Both the position numbers and the translations under genes were made by a program. Below, in pieces: positions 88 to 6,757 of a DNA stretch of 64,000 bases (position 1 is the first letter of the stretch; each line of letters opens with the position of its first letter). The notes beneath the pieces were generated by a model. That model saw only the letters and a program-made list of their open reading frames with translations, searched no databases and had not been told where the DNA came from. This stretch comes from Pseudomonas maioricensis. Lineage in GTDB: Bacteria; Pseudomonadota; Gammaproteobacteria; Pseudomonadales; Pseudomonadaceae. Location of the stretch: the NCBI RefSeq assembly GCF_022790535.1, contig NZ_LOHG01000002.1:342254-406253 (forward strand), read 5' to 3'.

Positions 88-2850
88 TCAGTGCGCCTCG
101 TCCCAGTTATCGCCCACACCGACTTCGACCAGCAGCGGCACATCCAGCTGCGCTGCGCCGCTCATGTACGGACGAATCTGCTCGCTGATCTGCTCGACCA
201 GATCTTCGCGAACCTCCAGCACCAGTTCATCGTGCACCTGCAGGATGACCCTTGCGTCCAGCTTCGATTCTTCCAGCCAGCCATTTACCGCCACCATGGC
301 CTTCTTGATGATGTCTGCCGCCGTGCCCTGCATCGGCGCGTTGATCGCCATGCGCTCTGCGCCTTTGCGCAAGGCCTGATTCTTGGCGTTGATGTCCGGC
401 AGATACAGACGACGGCCGAAGATGGTTTCAACGAAGCCTTGCTCGGCTGCCTGCGTACGGGTGCGCTCCATGTAATCGAGCACACCTGGGTAGCGGGCGA
501 AATAGCGGTCCACATAGGCCTGAGACTGCTTGCGATCAACACCGATCTGCTTGGCCAGACCAAATGCGCTCATGCCGTAGATCAGGCCGAAGTTGATTGC
601 CTTGGCGCTGCGGCGCATGTCGGTGGTGACGTTTTCAAGCTCGACACCGAAGACTTCCGCAGCCGTTGCCCGGTGCACGTCCAGGTCATTACGGAAGGCG
701 TGCAACAGACCTTCATCCTTGGCCAGATGGGCCATGATGCGCAGTTCGATCTGCGAGTAGTCCGCCGCCAGCAGCTTGTAGCCCTTGGGCGCGACAAACG
801 CCTGACGGATACGCCGCCCTTCAGCGGTACGGATCGGGATGTTCTGCAGATTCGGGTCGCTTGAGGACAAACGACCTGTCACCGCTACTGCCTGGTGATA
901 GGAGGTGTGAATGCGACCAGTACGTGGGTTGATCTGCTCTGGCAGGCGGTCAGTGTAAGTGCTCTTGAGCTTGCTCATCGAGCGGTACTGCATCAACACC
1001 TTGGGCAGCGGGAACCCTTGCTCGGCCAGTTCAGCGAGCACCGCTTCGGCAGTCGAGGCCTGCCCTTTGGCAGTTTTGCTCAGGATCGGCATGCCGAGTT
1101 TTTCATACAGGATCACGCCCAACTGCTTCGGCGAACCCAGATTGAATTCTTCACCGGCAATCTCGAACGCCTCGCGTTCAAGGGCAACCATCTTGTCGCC
1201 CAGCTCGACGCTTTGAATGCCCAGCAGCTTGGCGTCCACCAGCGCACCCTGGCGTTCGATACCAGCCAACACGGGCACCAGCGGCATTTCAATTTCGTTG
1301 AGCACCGGGGCCAGGCTTGGGATTGCAGCGAGCTTCGCCTGAAGCGCTTCGTGCAAGCGCAGCGTTATGTCAGCTTCTTGAGCAGCGTACTGCGCGGCCA
1401 GTTCCAGAGAAATCTGGTCGAACGTCAGCTGTTTCACGCCTTTGCCAGCGATGTCCTGGATATTCCCGGCGGCATGCCCCAAGTATTTCAGCGCAAGGCT
1501 TTCGCGATCGTGACGCGTCGCCGTGGAATCCAGCACATAGGATTCAAGCATGGTGTCGTACAGCAACCCCTGAACTTCAATGCCCTGACTCTGATCGCCA
1601 TCAATGGCGCAGTTAGCGAGGATATTGATATCGAACTTGGCGTGCTGACCGACTTTGATTTTGCTCGGGTCTTCCAGCAGCGGCTTGAGCTGCTTGAGTA
1701 CGTGATCACGGTCCAGTTGCTGCGGCACGCCCATGTAGGAGTGAGTCAGCGGGATGTAAGCGGCTTCGTGAGTCTGCACGGCAAATGACAACCCCACGAG
1801 CTGCGCACGCTGGGCGTCCAGCCCATTGCTCTGGGTCACGAACGCCACCAGCTTCGCATCGCTGAGCTTCTTCAGCCAGGTATCGAGCTGATCTTGCTCA
1901 AGGATGGTTTCGTAGCGGGACTCTGCCGGGGCCGGGGCTTCTTCGATGGCGATTTCCAGACCGACACGCTTGGCGTCGCGGTGCAGGTCTTCAATCCAGC
2001 TCTTGAATTCCAGTTCGGCATACAGCTCAAGCAACGCTTCACGATCAGGCTCGGTGCAGTGCAGTTGATCCAGTTCGATGTCCAGCGGGACGTCGATCTT
2101 GATCGTCGCCAACTCGTACGACAGGAACGCCATCGCCCGGTGCTCTTCGAGCTTGGCAGCCAGGGTTTTCGCGCCACGGATCGGCAGCGTCGCGACCATT
2201 TCGAGGTTTTCGTACAGTTCTTTCAGACCACCGCCCACGCCCACCAGCAAGCCCACGGCAGTCTTTTCGCCAACACCCGGCACGCCTGGAATGTTATCGA
2301 CCTTGTCGCCCATCAGTGCCAGATAATCGATGATGTGCTCAGGGCCGACGCCGAACTTCTCTTTCACGCCTGCCACGTCCTGCACGCTGCCGGTCATGGT
2401 GTTGACCAGCGTGATGTGCCCGTCGACCAACTGCGCCATGTCCTTGTCGCCGGTGGAAATGATGACCGGTCGGTCCGCCGCCGCGCTGCTGCGCGCCAAG
2501 GTGCCAATCACGTCATCGGCTTCGACCCCGTCCACGCACAGCAGCGGGTAACCCAAGCCTTTTACGCAGGCATGCAACAGGTCGATCTGCACACGCAAAT
2601 CGTCCGGCATGCTCGGGCGATTGGCCTTGTATTCGGCATACAGGTCATCACGGAACGTGCCGCCCTTGGCGTCGAACACCACCGCAAACGGGCTGTCCGG
2701 ATATTGCCGACGCAGGCTTTTGAGCATATTCAACACGCCCTTCACGGCTCCGGTAGGCAAACCTTTGGACGTGGCGAGTGGCGGCAGCGCGTGAAAAGCG
2801 CGGTACAGGTAAGAAGAACCGTCCACCAGGACGAGGGGAGCTTGGCTCAT
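88..2850 (-). CDS. polA: DNA polymerase I
   Basis: DNA repair and Okazaki-fragment polymerase of 920 residues, the usual length. An N-terminal 5'-3' exonuclease domain (about 1-290) is followed by a 3'-5' exonuclease fold (about 310-510) and the polymerase domain: motif A DYSQIELR near 697, motif B RRSAKAINFGLIYG near 746, motif C QVHDE near 871. The start at 2850 (MSQAPL) is preferred to an ATG four codons upstream because it fits the family. Odd point: in motif ExoI the two carboxylates of E. coli Pol I (D355, E357) are Val and Gln (AFVTQSNGLD, residues 336-345), while the ExoII Asp (KFD) and the ExoIII Tyr/Asp (YAAQEAD) are kept. Proofreading is therefore probably weak or lost, by inference. 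The gene is divergent from the DUF2782 gene. Confidence 0.97.
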   Translation of the reverse strand: MSQAPLVLVDGSSYLYRAFHALPPLATSKGLPTGAVKGVLNMLKSLRRQYPDSPFAVVFDAKGGTFRDDLYAEYKANRPSMPDDLRVQIDLLHACVKGLGYPLLCVDGVEADDVIGTLARSSAAADRPVIISTGDKDMAQLVDGHITLVNTMTGSVQDVAGVKEKFGVGPEHIIDYLALMGDKVDNIPGVPGVGEKTAVGLLVGVGGGLKELYENLEMVATLPIRGAKTLAAKLEEHRAMAFLSYELATIKIDVPLDIELDQLHCTEPDREALLELYAELEFKSWIEDLHRDAKRVGLEIAIEEAPAPAESRYETILEQDQLDTWLKKLSDAKLVAFVTQSNGLDAQRAQLVGLSFAVQTHEAAYIPLTHSYMGVPQQLDRDHVLKQLKPLLEDPSKIKVGQHAKFDINILANCAIDGDQSQGIEVQGLLYDTMLESYVLDSTATRHDRESLALKYLGHAAGNIQDIAGKGVKQLTFDQISLELAAQYAAQEADITLRLHEALQAKLAAIPSLAPVLNEIEMPLVPVLAGIERQGALVDAKLLGIQSVELGDKMVALEREAFEIAGEEFNLGSPKQLGVILYEKLGMPILSKTAKGQASTAEAVLAELAEQGFPLPKVLMQYRSMSKLKSTYTDRLPEQINPRTGRIHTSYHQAVAVTGRLSSSDPNLQNIPIRTAEGRRIRQAFVAPKGYKLLAADYSQIELRIMAHLAKDEGLLHAFRNDLDVHRATAAEVFGVELENVTTDMRRSAKAINFGLIYGMSAFGLAKQIGVDRKQSQAYVDRYFARYPGVLDYMERTRTQAAEQGFVETIFGRRLYLPDINAKNQALRKGAERMAINAPMQGTAADIIKKAMVAVNGWLEESKLDARVILQVHDELVLEVREDLVEQISEQIRPYMSGAAQLDVPLLVEVGVGDNWDEAH

Positions 2851-3248: not shown

Positions 3249-4199
3249 ATGTCCGTATTTACCCCCCTGGCTCGGCCCGAGCTGGAAACATTCCTCGCCC
3301 CTTACGGGCTAGGCCATCTACGTGACTTTCAAGGCATTGCCGCTGGAAGCGAAAACACCAACTACTTCATTAGCCTGGAGCAGGGTGAGTTCGTGCTGAC
3401 GCTGGTGGAGCGCGGTCCGGTTCAGGAAATGCCGTTCTTCATCGAGCTGCTGGACACCCTGCACGACGCTGATTTACCCGTACCATATGCGCTGCGCACC
3501 ACGGACGGCAGCGCATTGCGCGAGCTGGCGGGTAAACCGGCGCTACTGCAGCCACGCCTGCCGGGCAAACACATCAGCGACCCGAATAATCAGCACTGCG
3601 TGCAGATCGGCGAGCTACTGGGTCATCTGCATCTGGCAACACGCGACAAAGTGTTGGAGCGCAAGACCGATCGCGGCCTGGACTGGATGCTGGCAGAAGG
3701 CGCAACGCTGATTTCTCATCTGGATGCTGCGCCGAGTGCATTGCTCAAAGCGGCGCTGGAGGAAATCGAGCGCCTGAAGCCGAAGATCATGGCATTGCCC
3801 CGGGCGAACCTGCATGCCGATCTGTTCCGCGACAACGCGCTGTTCGAAGGCACGCACCTGACCGGGCTGATTGACTTTTACAACGCCTGCTCCGGGCCAA
3901 TGCTTTATGACCTGGCTATCGCGCTGAACGATTGGTGTTCGGACGAAGAGGGCAAGATCGACGCACCACGCGGTCGAGCCCTGCTGGGCGCTTACGCAGC
4001 ACTGCGCCCGTTCACCGCTGCCGAGGCCGAATTGTGGCCAACCATGCTGCGCGTTGGGTGCGTGCGTTTCTGGCTGTCACGGCTGATTGCTGCGGAGTCC
4101 AACGCAGGCCAGGACGTACTGATCCATGACCCGATGGAATTCCAGAAGCGCCTGGAACAACGGCAGGAAACGCACCTGCCGCTGCCGTTTGCGTTGTAA
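3249..4199 (+). CDS. thrB: Homoserine kinase
   Basis: Phosphorylates L-homoserine to O-phosphohomoserine for threonine synthesis. The 316-residue protein belongs to the aminoglycoside phosphotransferase/choline kinase fold type used by pseudomonads, not to the GHMP kinase type of E. coli. Visible signs are the N-terminal nucleotide-binding start GIAAGSENTNYF, the catalytic-loop motif NLHADLFRDN (about residues 183-192) and the metal-binding Asp in GLIDFYNAC. The neighbours (polA and the DUF2782 gene upstream) match the usual Pseudomonas order. A family A palindrome follows the stop codon. Confidence 0.93.
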   Translation: MSVFTPLARPELETFLAPYGLGHLRDFQGIAAGSENTNYFISLEQGEFVLTLVERGPVQEMPFFIELLDTLHDADLPVPYALRTTDGSALRELAGKPALLQPRLPGKHISDPNNQHCVQIGELLGHLHLATRDKVLERKTDRGLDWMLAEGATLISHLDAAPSALLKAALEEIERLKPKIMALPRANLHADLFRDNALFEGTHLTGLIDFYNACSGPMLYDLAIALNDWCSDEEGKIDAPRGRALLGAYAALRPFTAAEAELWPTMLRVGCVRFWLSRLIAAESNAGQDVLIHDPMEFQKRLEQRQETHLPLPFAL

Positions 4200-4477: not shown

Positions 4478-5419
4478 TTACAGACTCTCCAGGCACCCCA
4501 CAAGATCATCGCCCAGCTTGTTCAGCAGTTGCTCATACCCCGTCGCGTTCGCCGGGGTCTCACCGCCCAGCGCATCCAGCTCAGCCAGTTTTGCAGGCAG
4601 CCCGGCCGTCAGGGTTTCGGCAAGACGCGGACGCAATGGCGGCTCGCTGAACACGCAGGTCTTGCCCACTTCCGTCAGCCGTGCACGCATCGCCGCAACG
4701 TGCTGAGCGCCCGGCTGTACCTCGGCAGCAACGCTGAACACGCCCGCATGCTTGAGGCCGTAAGCGTCTTCGAAGTAATCAAAAGCCTCGTGAAACACGA
4801 AGTACGGCTTGCCCGCGATGCCGGCTACCCGGCTCTTGAGGCGCGCATCAAGCGCATCAAGACGCGTATTGAATGCCTTGGCATTACTCGTATACCGCAC
4901 AGCGTTGGCAGGATCGGCAGCACTTAAATCACTCGCCATTTTTGCCGCAATCACCCGGGCGTTTACTGACGACAGCCACAAGTGCGCGTCCAGACTTCCA
5001 GGACGATGGTCATGATCATGCTCGTCGTGGCCGTCTTCATCGCCTTCTTCGTGAGACGCGCTGTCCGCACCGAAGTGACGCAGCTTCAGTCCCGGCAGCG
5101 ATTGCACGGCCACGACCGGCAACGTCCGGCTTTTCAGGACACGTGGCAGGAAGCCTTCCATGTCCGGACCGATCCAGTAGAGCAAATCGGATTGCTGCAC
5201 GCGCCGTACGTCGGATGGTCGCAAAGCATAGTGGTGAGGCGAGGCGCCCGGAGGCAAAAGCACCTCTGGTGTACCGACGCCGTCCTGCACAGCCGCCGCA
5301 ATCAACTGCAGGGGCTTGATGCTGGTAAGGACCCGGACTTCGGCCTGAACCGGGGAAATTATCAGCAAACTGGCGGTTAAAACGATAAAAAGAGCAAAAA
5401 GACGATGCACGTGGGCCAC
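4478..5419 (-). CDS. znuA: Zinc ABC transporter substrate-binding protein
   Basis: Periplasmic zinc receptor of the ZnuABC importer, 313 residues from the GTG at 5419; a second GTG at 5410 is also possible. A signal peptide covers about residues 1-26. A His/Asp/Glu-rich loop at about 122-138 (HEEGDEDGHDEHDHDH) is typical of zinc-specific cluster A-I receptors. Candidate metal ligands are His in SPHHYALRPSD, DAHLWLS and FVFHEAFDYF. It is divergent from zur, with 58 bases between the starts holding a candidate Zur site, so it is probably repressed by Zur with zinc. Confidence 0.95.
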   Translation of the reverse strand: MAHVHRLFALFIVLTASLLIISPVQAEVRVLTSIKPLQLIAAAVQDGVGTPEVLLPPGASPHHYALRPSDVRRVQQSDLLYWIGPDMEGFLPRVLKSRTLPVVAVQSLPGLKLRHFGADSASHEEGDEDGHDEHDHDHRPGSLDAHLWLSSVNARVIAAKMASDLSAADPANAVRYTSNAKAFNTRLDALDARLKSRVAGIAGKPYFVFHEAFDYFEDAYGLKHAGVFSVAAEVQPGAQHVAAMRARLTEVGKTCVFSEPPLRPRLAETLTAGLPAKLAELDALGGETPANATGYEQLLNKLGDDLVGCLESL

Positions 5420-5438
5420 TCATTGAAGGCGGGAACGG

Positions 5439-5451
5439 GTAACATAATAAC
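5439..5451. promoter_or_regulatory. Candidate Zur operator
   Basis: GTAACATAATAAC is an imperfect AT-rich inverted repeat in the short gap between the divergent znuA and zur genes. It resembles the half-sites of gamma-proteobacterial Zur boxes. The assignment comes from position and partial match only. Confidence 0.45.
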
Positions 5452-5477
5452 GTCTCTAGCAAATATCGTCGCCGCCC

Positions 5478-5960
5478 ATGCCTATTACACCGTTGGCCAG
5501 TCGCCCTCACGACCACTCCCATTGCGTGCATACCGCGCTCTCCGAAGCCGATGTGCTGTGCGCCCAGAAAGGCTTGCGCCTGACCGCTTTGCGCCGTCGC
5601 GTACTGGAACTGGTCTGGCAAAGCCATAAACCGTTGGGTGCCTATGACATCCTCGCCGTACTCAGCGAAGAAGACGGCCGCCGCGCCGCACCGCCTACTG
5701 TTTACCGGGCCCTGGATTTCCTCCTGGAAAACGGCCTGGTACACCGCATTGCTTCGCTGAACGCCTTCACTGGCTGTAACCACCCGACTCACGCGCATCA
5801 GGGCCAGTTCCTGATTTGCCGTGAATGCCACGCCGCCATCGAGCTGCAAAGCCCGACCATCAGTGACGCCGTCACAGGCGCCGCCGCCGAAGTCGGTTTC
5901 GCCGTCGAAGGCCAGACCGTGGAAATCATCGGGGTATGTTCCGGCTGCAAGGCGGCCTGA
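5478..5960 (+). CDS. zur: Zinc uptake transcriptional repressor, Fur family
   Basis: Fur-family repressor of 160 residues that senses zinc and shuts off zinc uptake. It has an N-terminal winged helix (about 20-95, with [21 protein letters not shown]) and a C-terminal dimer/metal domain. Two CxxC pairs (C114/C117 and C154/C157) form the structural zinc site. The N-terminus carries extra HDHSHCVH residues. It is the first gene of the zur-znuC-znuB operon: its TGA overlaps the znuC ATG (TGATG). It faces znuA across the probable operator and likely represses both units. Confidence 0.95.
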
Positions 5961-6757
5961 TGAGCAACGCGTTGATCAAACTTGAGCGCGTCGGCGTCGC
6001 CCTTTCCGGGCAGAACGTGCTGGAAAACATTCACCTGAGCGTCAAGCCTGGGGAAATCGTCACCCTGATCGGCCCCAACGGCGCAGGTAAGACAACGCTG
6101 GTGCGCGCAGTGCTTGGCTTGCTCAAGCCGGATTCCGGCAGCGTGTGGCGCAAACCGAAGCTACGTGTTGGCTACATGCCGCAAAAGCTCCATGTTGACC
6201 CGACGCTACCGCTGTCCGTGTTGCGTTTCCTGCGTCTGGTTCCCGGTGTAGATCGTGCGGGGGCGCTGGCAGCCCTGGTTGAAGTGGGTGCAGAGAAAGT
6301 CATCGACAGTCCGCTACAAGGTATTTCCGGCGGTGAAATGCAGCGCGTTCTGCTGGCTCGCGCCCTGTTGCGCGAACCGGAACTGCTGGTCCTGGATGAG
6401 CCTGTGCAGGGCGTCGATGTAGCGGGGCAGGCTGAGCTGTATAGCTTGATCACCCGCCTGCGCGATCGCCATGGTTGCGGCGTGTTGATGGTCTCTCACG
6501 ATCTGCACCTGGTGATGAGCACAACGGATCAAGTGGTATGCCTCAATCGCCACGTCTGCTGCTCCGGCCACCCGGAACAGGTCAGTCACGACCCTGCGTT
6601 TGTTGAGCTGTTCGGCAAGAACGCACAAAGCCTGGCGATTTATCACCACCATCACGACCACGCTCATGATCTGCATGGCGAAGTCGTCGAGGACGCCGCC
6701 GATTCGGTCGGCTCCACCCACACACACGTTCACGGAGACAGCTGCAAGCATGGCTGA
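5960..6757 (+). CDS. znuC: Zinc ABC transporter ATP-binding protein
   Basis: Cytoplasmic ATPase of ZnuABC, 265 residues. Walker [10 protein letters not shown] (about 38-46), signature GISGGEMQR (about 121-129), Walker B LLVLDEP (about 142-148) and the switch His in MVSHD (about 180) are all present. The C-terminus has a histidine-rich tail at about 228-265 ([21 protein letters not shown]) that could bind zinc on the cytoplasmic side; that role is inference. The start at 5960 overlaps the zur stop by one base, and the end overlaps znuB by eight bases, which points to translational coupling. Confidence 0.96.

Follow-up and report, generated by a model that had tools for sequence, protein, structure and literature searches.

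Does a DNA polymerase I (Pol I) that keeps the fold of its 3'-5' exonuclease domain also keep the ability to proofread? The question is raised by the polA gene of the plant-associated Pseudomonas maioricensis, which lies at positions 88-2850 of the minus strand in a 64,000-nucleotide stretch of contig NZ_LOHG01000002.1 (assembly GCF_022790535.1), referred to here as the window. Counted from its ATG, polA encodes 920 amino acids in an unbroken open reading frame (ORF) identified by Pfam and NCBIfam profiles; the ORF call itself reaches an upstream TTG at 2862. Within it, bases 1839-1831 of the minus strand read GTG ACC CAG, placing Val338-Thr339-Gln340 where the ExoI motif of E. coli Pol I has Asp355-Thr-Glu357. 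The explanation that best accounts for the whole body of observations, and which we hold with high confidence, is an otherwise normal Pol I with a dead 3'-5' proofreading site, within a history of losses and a regain as proposed below.

The correspondence of Val338 and Gln340 to Asp355 and Glu357, already drawn in a sequence-only reading of this DNA, is borne out by a gapless phmmer alignment to the ExoI strand of the Klenow fragment, whose chain supplies the numbering used from here on. The spacing from ExoI to the ExoII aspartate, given there as 69 residues, is indeed the same in the window protein and in E. coli. That reading also took the ExoII aspartate and the ExoIII tyrosine and aspartate to be kept. 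Asp424 of ExoII is retained (GAT, 1630-1632, minus strand), as is Tyr497 of ExoIII (1387-1389, minus strand, by alignment), but the position of Asp501 is occupied by glutamate (GAA, 1375-1377, minus strand), and the ExoIII motif reads YAAQEAD as against YAAEDAD in E. coli. In all, three of the four metal-site carboxylates (Asp355, Glu357 and Asp501) are replaced. The ExoI strand, KLVAFVTQSNG, contains no other acidic residue; Ser-Asn follows the motif in place of Thr-Thr (positions 358-359; 1825-1830, minus strand), the Asn being found also in a second exonuclease-dead group, and an isoleucine (1459-1461, minus strand) stands at the position of Phe473, which is phenylalanine in all 101 intact rows counted. 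Of the residues on which DEDDy proofreading depends, the window protein thus has Asp424, lacks Asp355 and Glu357, and lacks an intact Tyr497-Asp501 pair; like the exonuclease-inactive Pol I of the H. pylori or Bacillus kind, it combines a kept exonuclease fold with substituted DEDDy residues. Asp355 bridges both metals of the exonuclease site, and its loss together with that of Glu357, added to Asp501Glu, would remove most of the two-metal site. Identical residues at positions 355, 357, 424, 497 and 501 (V, Q, D, Y, E) are read in L003-L006, the genomes nearest to this one, and Val355 recurs in all 33 group-A loci aligned, so the ExoI change is neither chance nor sequencing error.

The remainder of the protein is that of an ordinary Pol I. 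The NCBIfam DNA polymerase I profile matches it at 1162 bits, above its cut-off, and PF02739, PF01367, PF01612 and PF00476 all exceed their Pfam cut-offs. On the minus strand, the 5'-3' exonuclease (FEN-like) domain covers 2038-2835 (PF02739 and PF01367, residues 5-270), the 3'-5' exonuclease domain 1330-1914 (PF01612, 91.8 bits, residues 312-506) and the polymerase domain 97-1221 (PF00476, 538 bits). The polymerase motifs ADYSQIE and VHDEL are intact, their columns being invariant in a 38-row alignment. An AlphaFold model has a mean predicted local distance difference test score of 88.6, with most exonuclease-domain blocks at or above 90, and a fold comparison with the PDB ranks Klenow fragments first; by profile, model and fold match alike, the 3'-5' exonuclease domain retains a DnaQ-like fold around a lost active site. 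The gene product would therefore be a 5'-3' nuclease and a polymerase joined by a 3'-5' exonuclease domain that has kept its fold, with a proofreading site presumably dead because its metal-binding carboxylates have been replaced (Asp355, Glu357 and Asp501 by Val, Gln and Glu). Removal of mismatched 3' ends from Okazaki-fragment gap filling and excision repair would then fall to mismatch repair or to a different exonuclease, for example that of DnaQ or of DNA polymerase II (Pol II).

Whether this state is peculiar to the window or clade-wide can be read from 398 genomes of the genus, in 397 of which PolA was detected. One or both ExoI carboxylates are lost in 67 of the 398: 29 genomes of group A, the window's P. 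syringae-type group, 36 of group B, of P. brassicacearum/mandelii type, and 2 singletons. ExoI is intact in 328, and three genomes were unscored (G217 without a PolA match, G329 truncated, G365 a fragment). ExoI is lost in 29 of the 29 group-A genomes, so the change is group-wide. Genomes were sorted by codon patterns at ExoI. The intact-type pattern matched in 327 genomes, the group-B-type pattern in 31 and the group-A-type pattern in 35, the last comprising the 29 group-A PolA, one group-B PolA (G106) and five matches outside polA; a reversed control pattern matched in 5 of the 398, so that about 1 in 100 of the intact-type matches may be chance. Ten genomes without any pattern turned out, when read, to be four of group B (G123, G200, G268, G289), one intact (G160), two new losses and the three unscored. 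The singleton losses are Glu357Lys with Asp501Glu (G319, locus L193) and Glu357Arg with Asp501Val (G155, locus L194). All five residues were read in 113 genomes (29 of group A, 36 of group B, 2 singletons and 46 intact). Among 80 named loci, four fall in group A (P. viridiflava p23.C6, P. syringae GAW0119, Pseudomonas sp. KUIN-1 and P. californiensis) and eight in group B, including P. mandelii, P. violetae, P. lini and P. brassicacearum; the remaining 68 carry D, E, D, Y, D, and no P. aeruginosa PolA was among those read. Two labels look wrong, as the PolA of L078 (titled P. viridiflava p13.H9) and of L064 (Pantoea sp. Cy-639) group with other Pseudomonas lineages.

Beyond ExoI, the site has decayed step by step. 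The 29 group-A genomes divide into 21 with V, Q, A, Y, E, five with V, Q, D, Y, E, two with V, K, D, F, D and one with V, Q, D, F, D. Val355, Gln357 (Lys in two), Ser358 and Asn359 are common to all 33 group-A alignment loci, of which 30 carry Glu501, 23 have exchanged Asp424 for Ala and three have Phe for Tyr497. Group B has Val355, Asn359 (except L154) and, in most members, Glu at 424, while Asp501 is kept and Glu357 is kept everywhere except in G106. The group-B PolA of that genome (L152) has gained Gln357 independently, the same change as in group A, and keeps Asp424. Drift in both groups also affects two positions that we take to be DNA-contact residues of the Klenow exonuclease site: 473 and 361, the latter being Leu, Ile or Val in all but one of 101 intact rows. 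Residues specific to group A occupy 20 of 194 exonuclease columns as against 9 of 414 in the polymerase and 5 of 311 in the 5'-nuclease domain; for group B the corresponding figures are 16 of 194, 4 of 414 and 7 of 311.

The same concentration of change appears in branch lengths, estimated for 179 rows on a topology fixed from the other domains and with the five active-site columns left out. Three P. cichorii-type rows, whose very long polymerase-domain stem splits group A, were set aside from this test. In intact lineages the ratio of exonuclease to polymerase branch length is 1.02 (5-95% range of 40 bootstraps, 0.76-1.33). It rises to 5.0 on the stem of group A and 2.1 within it, to 6.9 and 1.7 on the stem of and within group B, and to 3.4 and 2.7 on the two singleton branches. 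As a ratio of ratios, A reaches 2.12 (1.65-2.64) and B 1.71 (1.26-2.28). For 5'-nuclease against polymerase, intact lineages give 0.85, the interior of group A 0.99 and that of group B 0.83; the stems of A (a short branch) and B give 1.85 and 0.45, and the singleton branches 1.01 and 0.25. Constraint on the exonuclease domain has loosened after the loss.

A single shared origin of the two large groups is rejected outside the exonuclease domain: with that domain removed, a joint clade of A and B has a p value of 7e-8 in the approximately unbiased (AU) test, and the groups lie far apart, B being nested among intact P. fluorescens-type rows. Given this separation, Asp355Val and Thr359Asn probably arose twice, once in each group. 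The exonuclease segment alone does not reject the joint clade (log-likelihood 3.4 better, p 0.63). Shared relaxed sites are the likelier reason for that signal, because nucleotide identity in the segment is no higher between A and B (0.737) than between A and its near, intact relatives (0.741). Group B is one clade in polA, yet its eight named loci are not one clade in thrB (p 0.016), nor are the three group-B genomes tested in rpoBC (p 5e-5) or recA (p 3e-10), which probably means that species in this group have exchanged complete polA alleles. Exonuclease segments have probably moved inside group A also. One set of group-A loci (L021-L030, VQAYE2) has Ala424 and several exonuclease-domain residues in common with the rows of the VQAYE subgroup and is placed variously by species markers. 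One group-B genome carries a second full-strength RecA match (473 bits; G038:C11:69113-69895).

A different history is suggested by the P. cichorii-type PolA (L069, L075 and L144, from P. cichorii, P. capsici and G018), whose five residues are D, E, D, Y, D. Outside polA, P. cichorii is the sister of the group-A subgroup VQAYE in rpoBC (10.6 kb, 29 genomes; support 100), at the recA locus (3.3 kb, 30 genomes; 99.9), in 11 concatenated genes of the recA region (10.4 kb, 20 genomes; 100) and in polB (20 genomes, one of them cichorii-type; 99.9). A group A without P. cichorii is rejected by these data with AU p values of 4e-78, 2e-94, 6e-57 and 5e-54, respectively, owing in part to other group-A rows, since VQAYE2 lies outside A plus P. 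cichorii in rpoBC and polB, as G249 does in polB. The topology of thrB, which served as a polA-linked species marker, agrees on the placement and does not reject the alternative (p 0.12). With the 11-gene set overlapping the recA locus, the markers amount to four regions in all, one of which (thrB) adjoins polA. Of five single-gene trees from the 11-gene set, three unite P. cichorii with VQAYE and none rejects that union, and one rejects a group A without P. cichorii at the 0.05 level (p 0.015).

Along its length, the polA of P. cichorii is a mosaic. Codons 1-260 and 840 to the end are A-like, codons ~300-500 resemble intact non-A rows, and codons ~520-840 are close to nothing sampled and are likely an import from an unsampled donor. 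The polymerase domain of this type is unusually divergent (stem 0.42-0.61 depending on the data), and both gene ends are ordinary. A clade of P. cichorii and VQAYE is rejected by the exonuclease segment (p 0.00095) and is not rejected by the polymerase segment (p 0.18). Combined, the two gene ends recover that clade, though at a support of only 41; they weakly reject a P. cichorii outside A (p 0.043) and do not reject an A without P. cichorii (p 0.165). Codons 1-260 alone reject no placement. All of these segment tests are rough, several free tree searches having missed better trees. Because the outside markers set P. cichorii inside the exonuclease-dead group and its polA is a mosaic, a regain is the account we are inclined to accept: proofreading would have been lost before P. 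cichorii split off and recovered when recombination exchanged the central part of polA.

Could other polymerases make good the defect? In the window genome, DnaQ (L197, which passes the cut-off of the NCBIfam profile for DNA polymerase III subunit epsilon) keeps DTE, HNAAFD and HGALLD, and Pol II (L205; NCBIfam DNA polymerase II) keeps DIE, FD and YNLKD, the four Pol II acids being kept in 20 of 20 genomes read. With these motifs kept, proofreading by DNA polymerase III and by Pol II appears intact, and Pol I would be the enzyme affected. Compensation was surveyed in 80 genomes picked from the 398 with known Pol I state. PolB is present in 20 of 22 genomes of group A, 24 of 24 of group B, both singletons and 32 of 32 intact genomes, and Y-family polymerase domains occur in all 80 whatever the state of Pol I. 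The one departure in this subset is that PolB was not detected in two group-A genomes (G298 and G125; L018 and L020, with Lys357 and Phe497); there, proofreading by Pol I and by Pol II would both be missing.

The proposal of the sequence-only reading that this Pol I copies without proofreading gains support from the three replaced carboxylates, from the further decay in its relatives and from a precedent in H. pylori. Several observations weigh on the other side. Asp424 and Tyr497 remain in the window protein and Glu501 could bind metal, so that trace activity is conceivable there. Loss of activity is less certain in group B, where Glu357 (mostly) and Asp501 are kept, and in the singletons, which keep Asp355, than in the window. 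Pairwise ratios of nonsynonymous divergence (dN) between exonuclease and polymerase domains overlap between dead (1.95-2.89) and intact (1.41-2.18) lineages, leaving only the tree-based estimate clear. The ratio of nonsynonymous to synonymous divergence in the dead domain is low (0.03-0.09), so something other than proofreading continues to constrain it; the need for its fold as a scaffold would fit. Lastly, 282 of the 328 intact genomes were scored at ExoI only, by pattern. A weak yet useful exonuclease, with one metal held by Asp424, Glu501 and neighbouring acids, would draw on Asp424 and Tyr497, kept in the window's subgroup, and on the acidity of Glu501; it is nevertheless very improbable, as the metal-bridging Asp355 is gone in every A and B row read, Asp424 too is lost in most group-A loci, positions 361 and 473, presumed to contact DNA, drift, and constraint on the domain is relaxed. 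An assembly error, a pseudogene or another Pol I gene with an intact site can practically be dismissed, given the unbroken ORF of 920 amino acids, the single PolA match found by a search of the genome and the recurrence of the same state in independent assemblies.

Two further readings concern the reason for the loss and whether P. cichorii ever underwent it. Without proofreading, Pol I might extend mismatches and bypass lesions, and the loss might have been favoured for greater mutability or damage tolerance. Two large groups took Asp355Val and Thr359Asn independently, and H. pylori and B. subtilis offer precedents (PMC3121766, PMC12926913), an adaptive value of the loss having been argued for H. 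pylori by others. Adaptive loss is still unlikely: Y-family domains are present whatever the Pol I state, which leaves no obvious need for Pol I in bypass, the ongoing decay of the site better fits relaxed constraint than a maintained new function, and P. cichorii has seemingly reverted. It is also possible, if doubtful, that P. cichorii simply kept the ancestral site, while the dead segment spread by recombination among the other P. syringae lineages or the site was lost several times. Trees of the exonuclease or the polymerase domain alone place P. cichorii outside A, holding the two together not being rejected (p 0.55 and 0.36), and relations inside A differ between the exonuclease segment and the rest of polA, so that segments have moved there. 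The phylogroup of P. cichorii is counted as early-branching, like that of P. viridiflava (PMC6317194), the text available from this and two further papers giving no mutual order (PMC5725466, PMC4153583). Retention must be squared, however, with rpoBC, the recA region and polB, which nest P. cichorii inside A as sister of VQAYE; with thrB, which places it likewise and leaves the alternative standing; with Val355, Gln or Lys357, Ser358 and Asn359 shared by every group-A locus; and with a polA that looks foreign at codons ~270-840 and A-like at both ends. As the trees show, the loss is group-wide in the P. syringae group and came about separately in the group of P. brassicacearum/mandelii type, as it did in two other species; the P. 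cichorii/P. capsici site was most likely restored by recombination, a step that is supported rather than proven. Taken together, the evidence tilts towards a proofreading function that has been switched off at least four times in Pseudomonas (twice by Asp355Val with Thr359Asn), with defective alleles passed between species, and regained once by import of the middle of polA.

In the window, polA has thrB (homoserine kinase) as its divergent neighbour at 3249-4199 on the plus strand (NCBIfam, 372 bits against a cut-off of 271). A zinc-uptake cluster adjoins at 4478-6757; its ABC ATPase is ZnuC, above the NCBIfam cut-off, and its binding protein and regulator have ZnuA and Zur as best NCBIfam matches, below the curated cut-offs.

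A literature search that left most subscription journals outside its reach returned no paper describing a pseudomonad, P. syringae included, whose Pol I has lost proofreading, and no P. syringae mutation rate. About half of bacterial Pol I enzymes manage without proofreading, in a published pattern that is largely phylum-wide (PMC12926913). Within the single genus Pseudomonas, the losses recur independently, close relatives have the site intact and one lineage has probably reverted in nature, so that consequences for mutation rate, for errors on the lagging strand and for lesion bypass can be compared directly. These data also caution that several soil pseudomonads, along with the P. syringae group, replicate and repair their DNA with a Pol I unlike the E. 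coli model.

That model is nonetheless the closest reference. E. coli Pol I, as the Klenow fragment, is the best solved relative by sequence and by fold and has the same three domains; it keeps Asp355, Glu357, Asp424 and Asp501, three of which are replaced in the window protein. Laboratory exonuclease-minus Klenow mutants (D355A/E357A and D424A) alter these same positions. PMC3121766, citing Makiela-Dzbenska 2009, portrays E. coli Pol I exonuclease mutants as mutators biased towards the lagging strand. A close natural counterpart described there is the Pol I of H. pylori (HP1470), in which, as in the window protein, the exonuclease fold is judged to be kept and metal-binding residues are missing; the purified enzyme, without Asp355, Asp424 and Asp501, has no 3'-5' exonuclease (PMC3121766). 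H. pylori differs in being without translesion polymerases, whereas the surveyed pseudomonads have Y-family domains. On a broader scale, a survey of more than 3000 species reports that about half of PolA1 proteins carry a substituted DEDDy motif (PMC12926913). The inactive PolA1 of Firmicutes, Tenericutes and Actinobacteria represents the same kind of loss as that in the window, but there it is largely phylum-specific, whereas in Pseudomonas it recurs among intact sister species. The word Pseudomonas is absent from the main text of that survey, whose supplements may list the loss. APEX/PolA2 of Actinobacteria, described in the same text, likewise has an inactivated 3'-5' exonuclease domain but is without the 5'-3' nuclease domain that the window protein possesses, which sets the latter apart from PolA2. 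An exonuclease-inactive Pol I is thus of a known kind, and what is new here is its recent and repeated emergence inside one genus, together with a probable regain.

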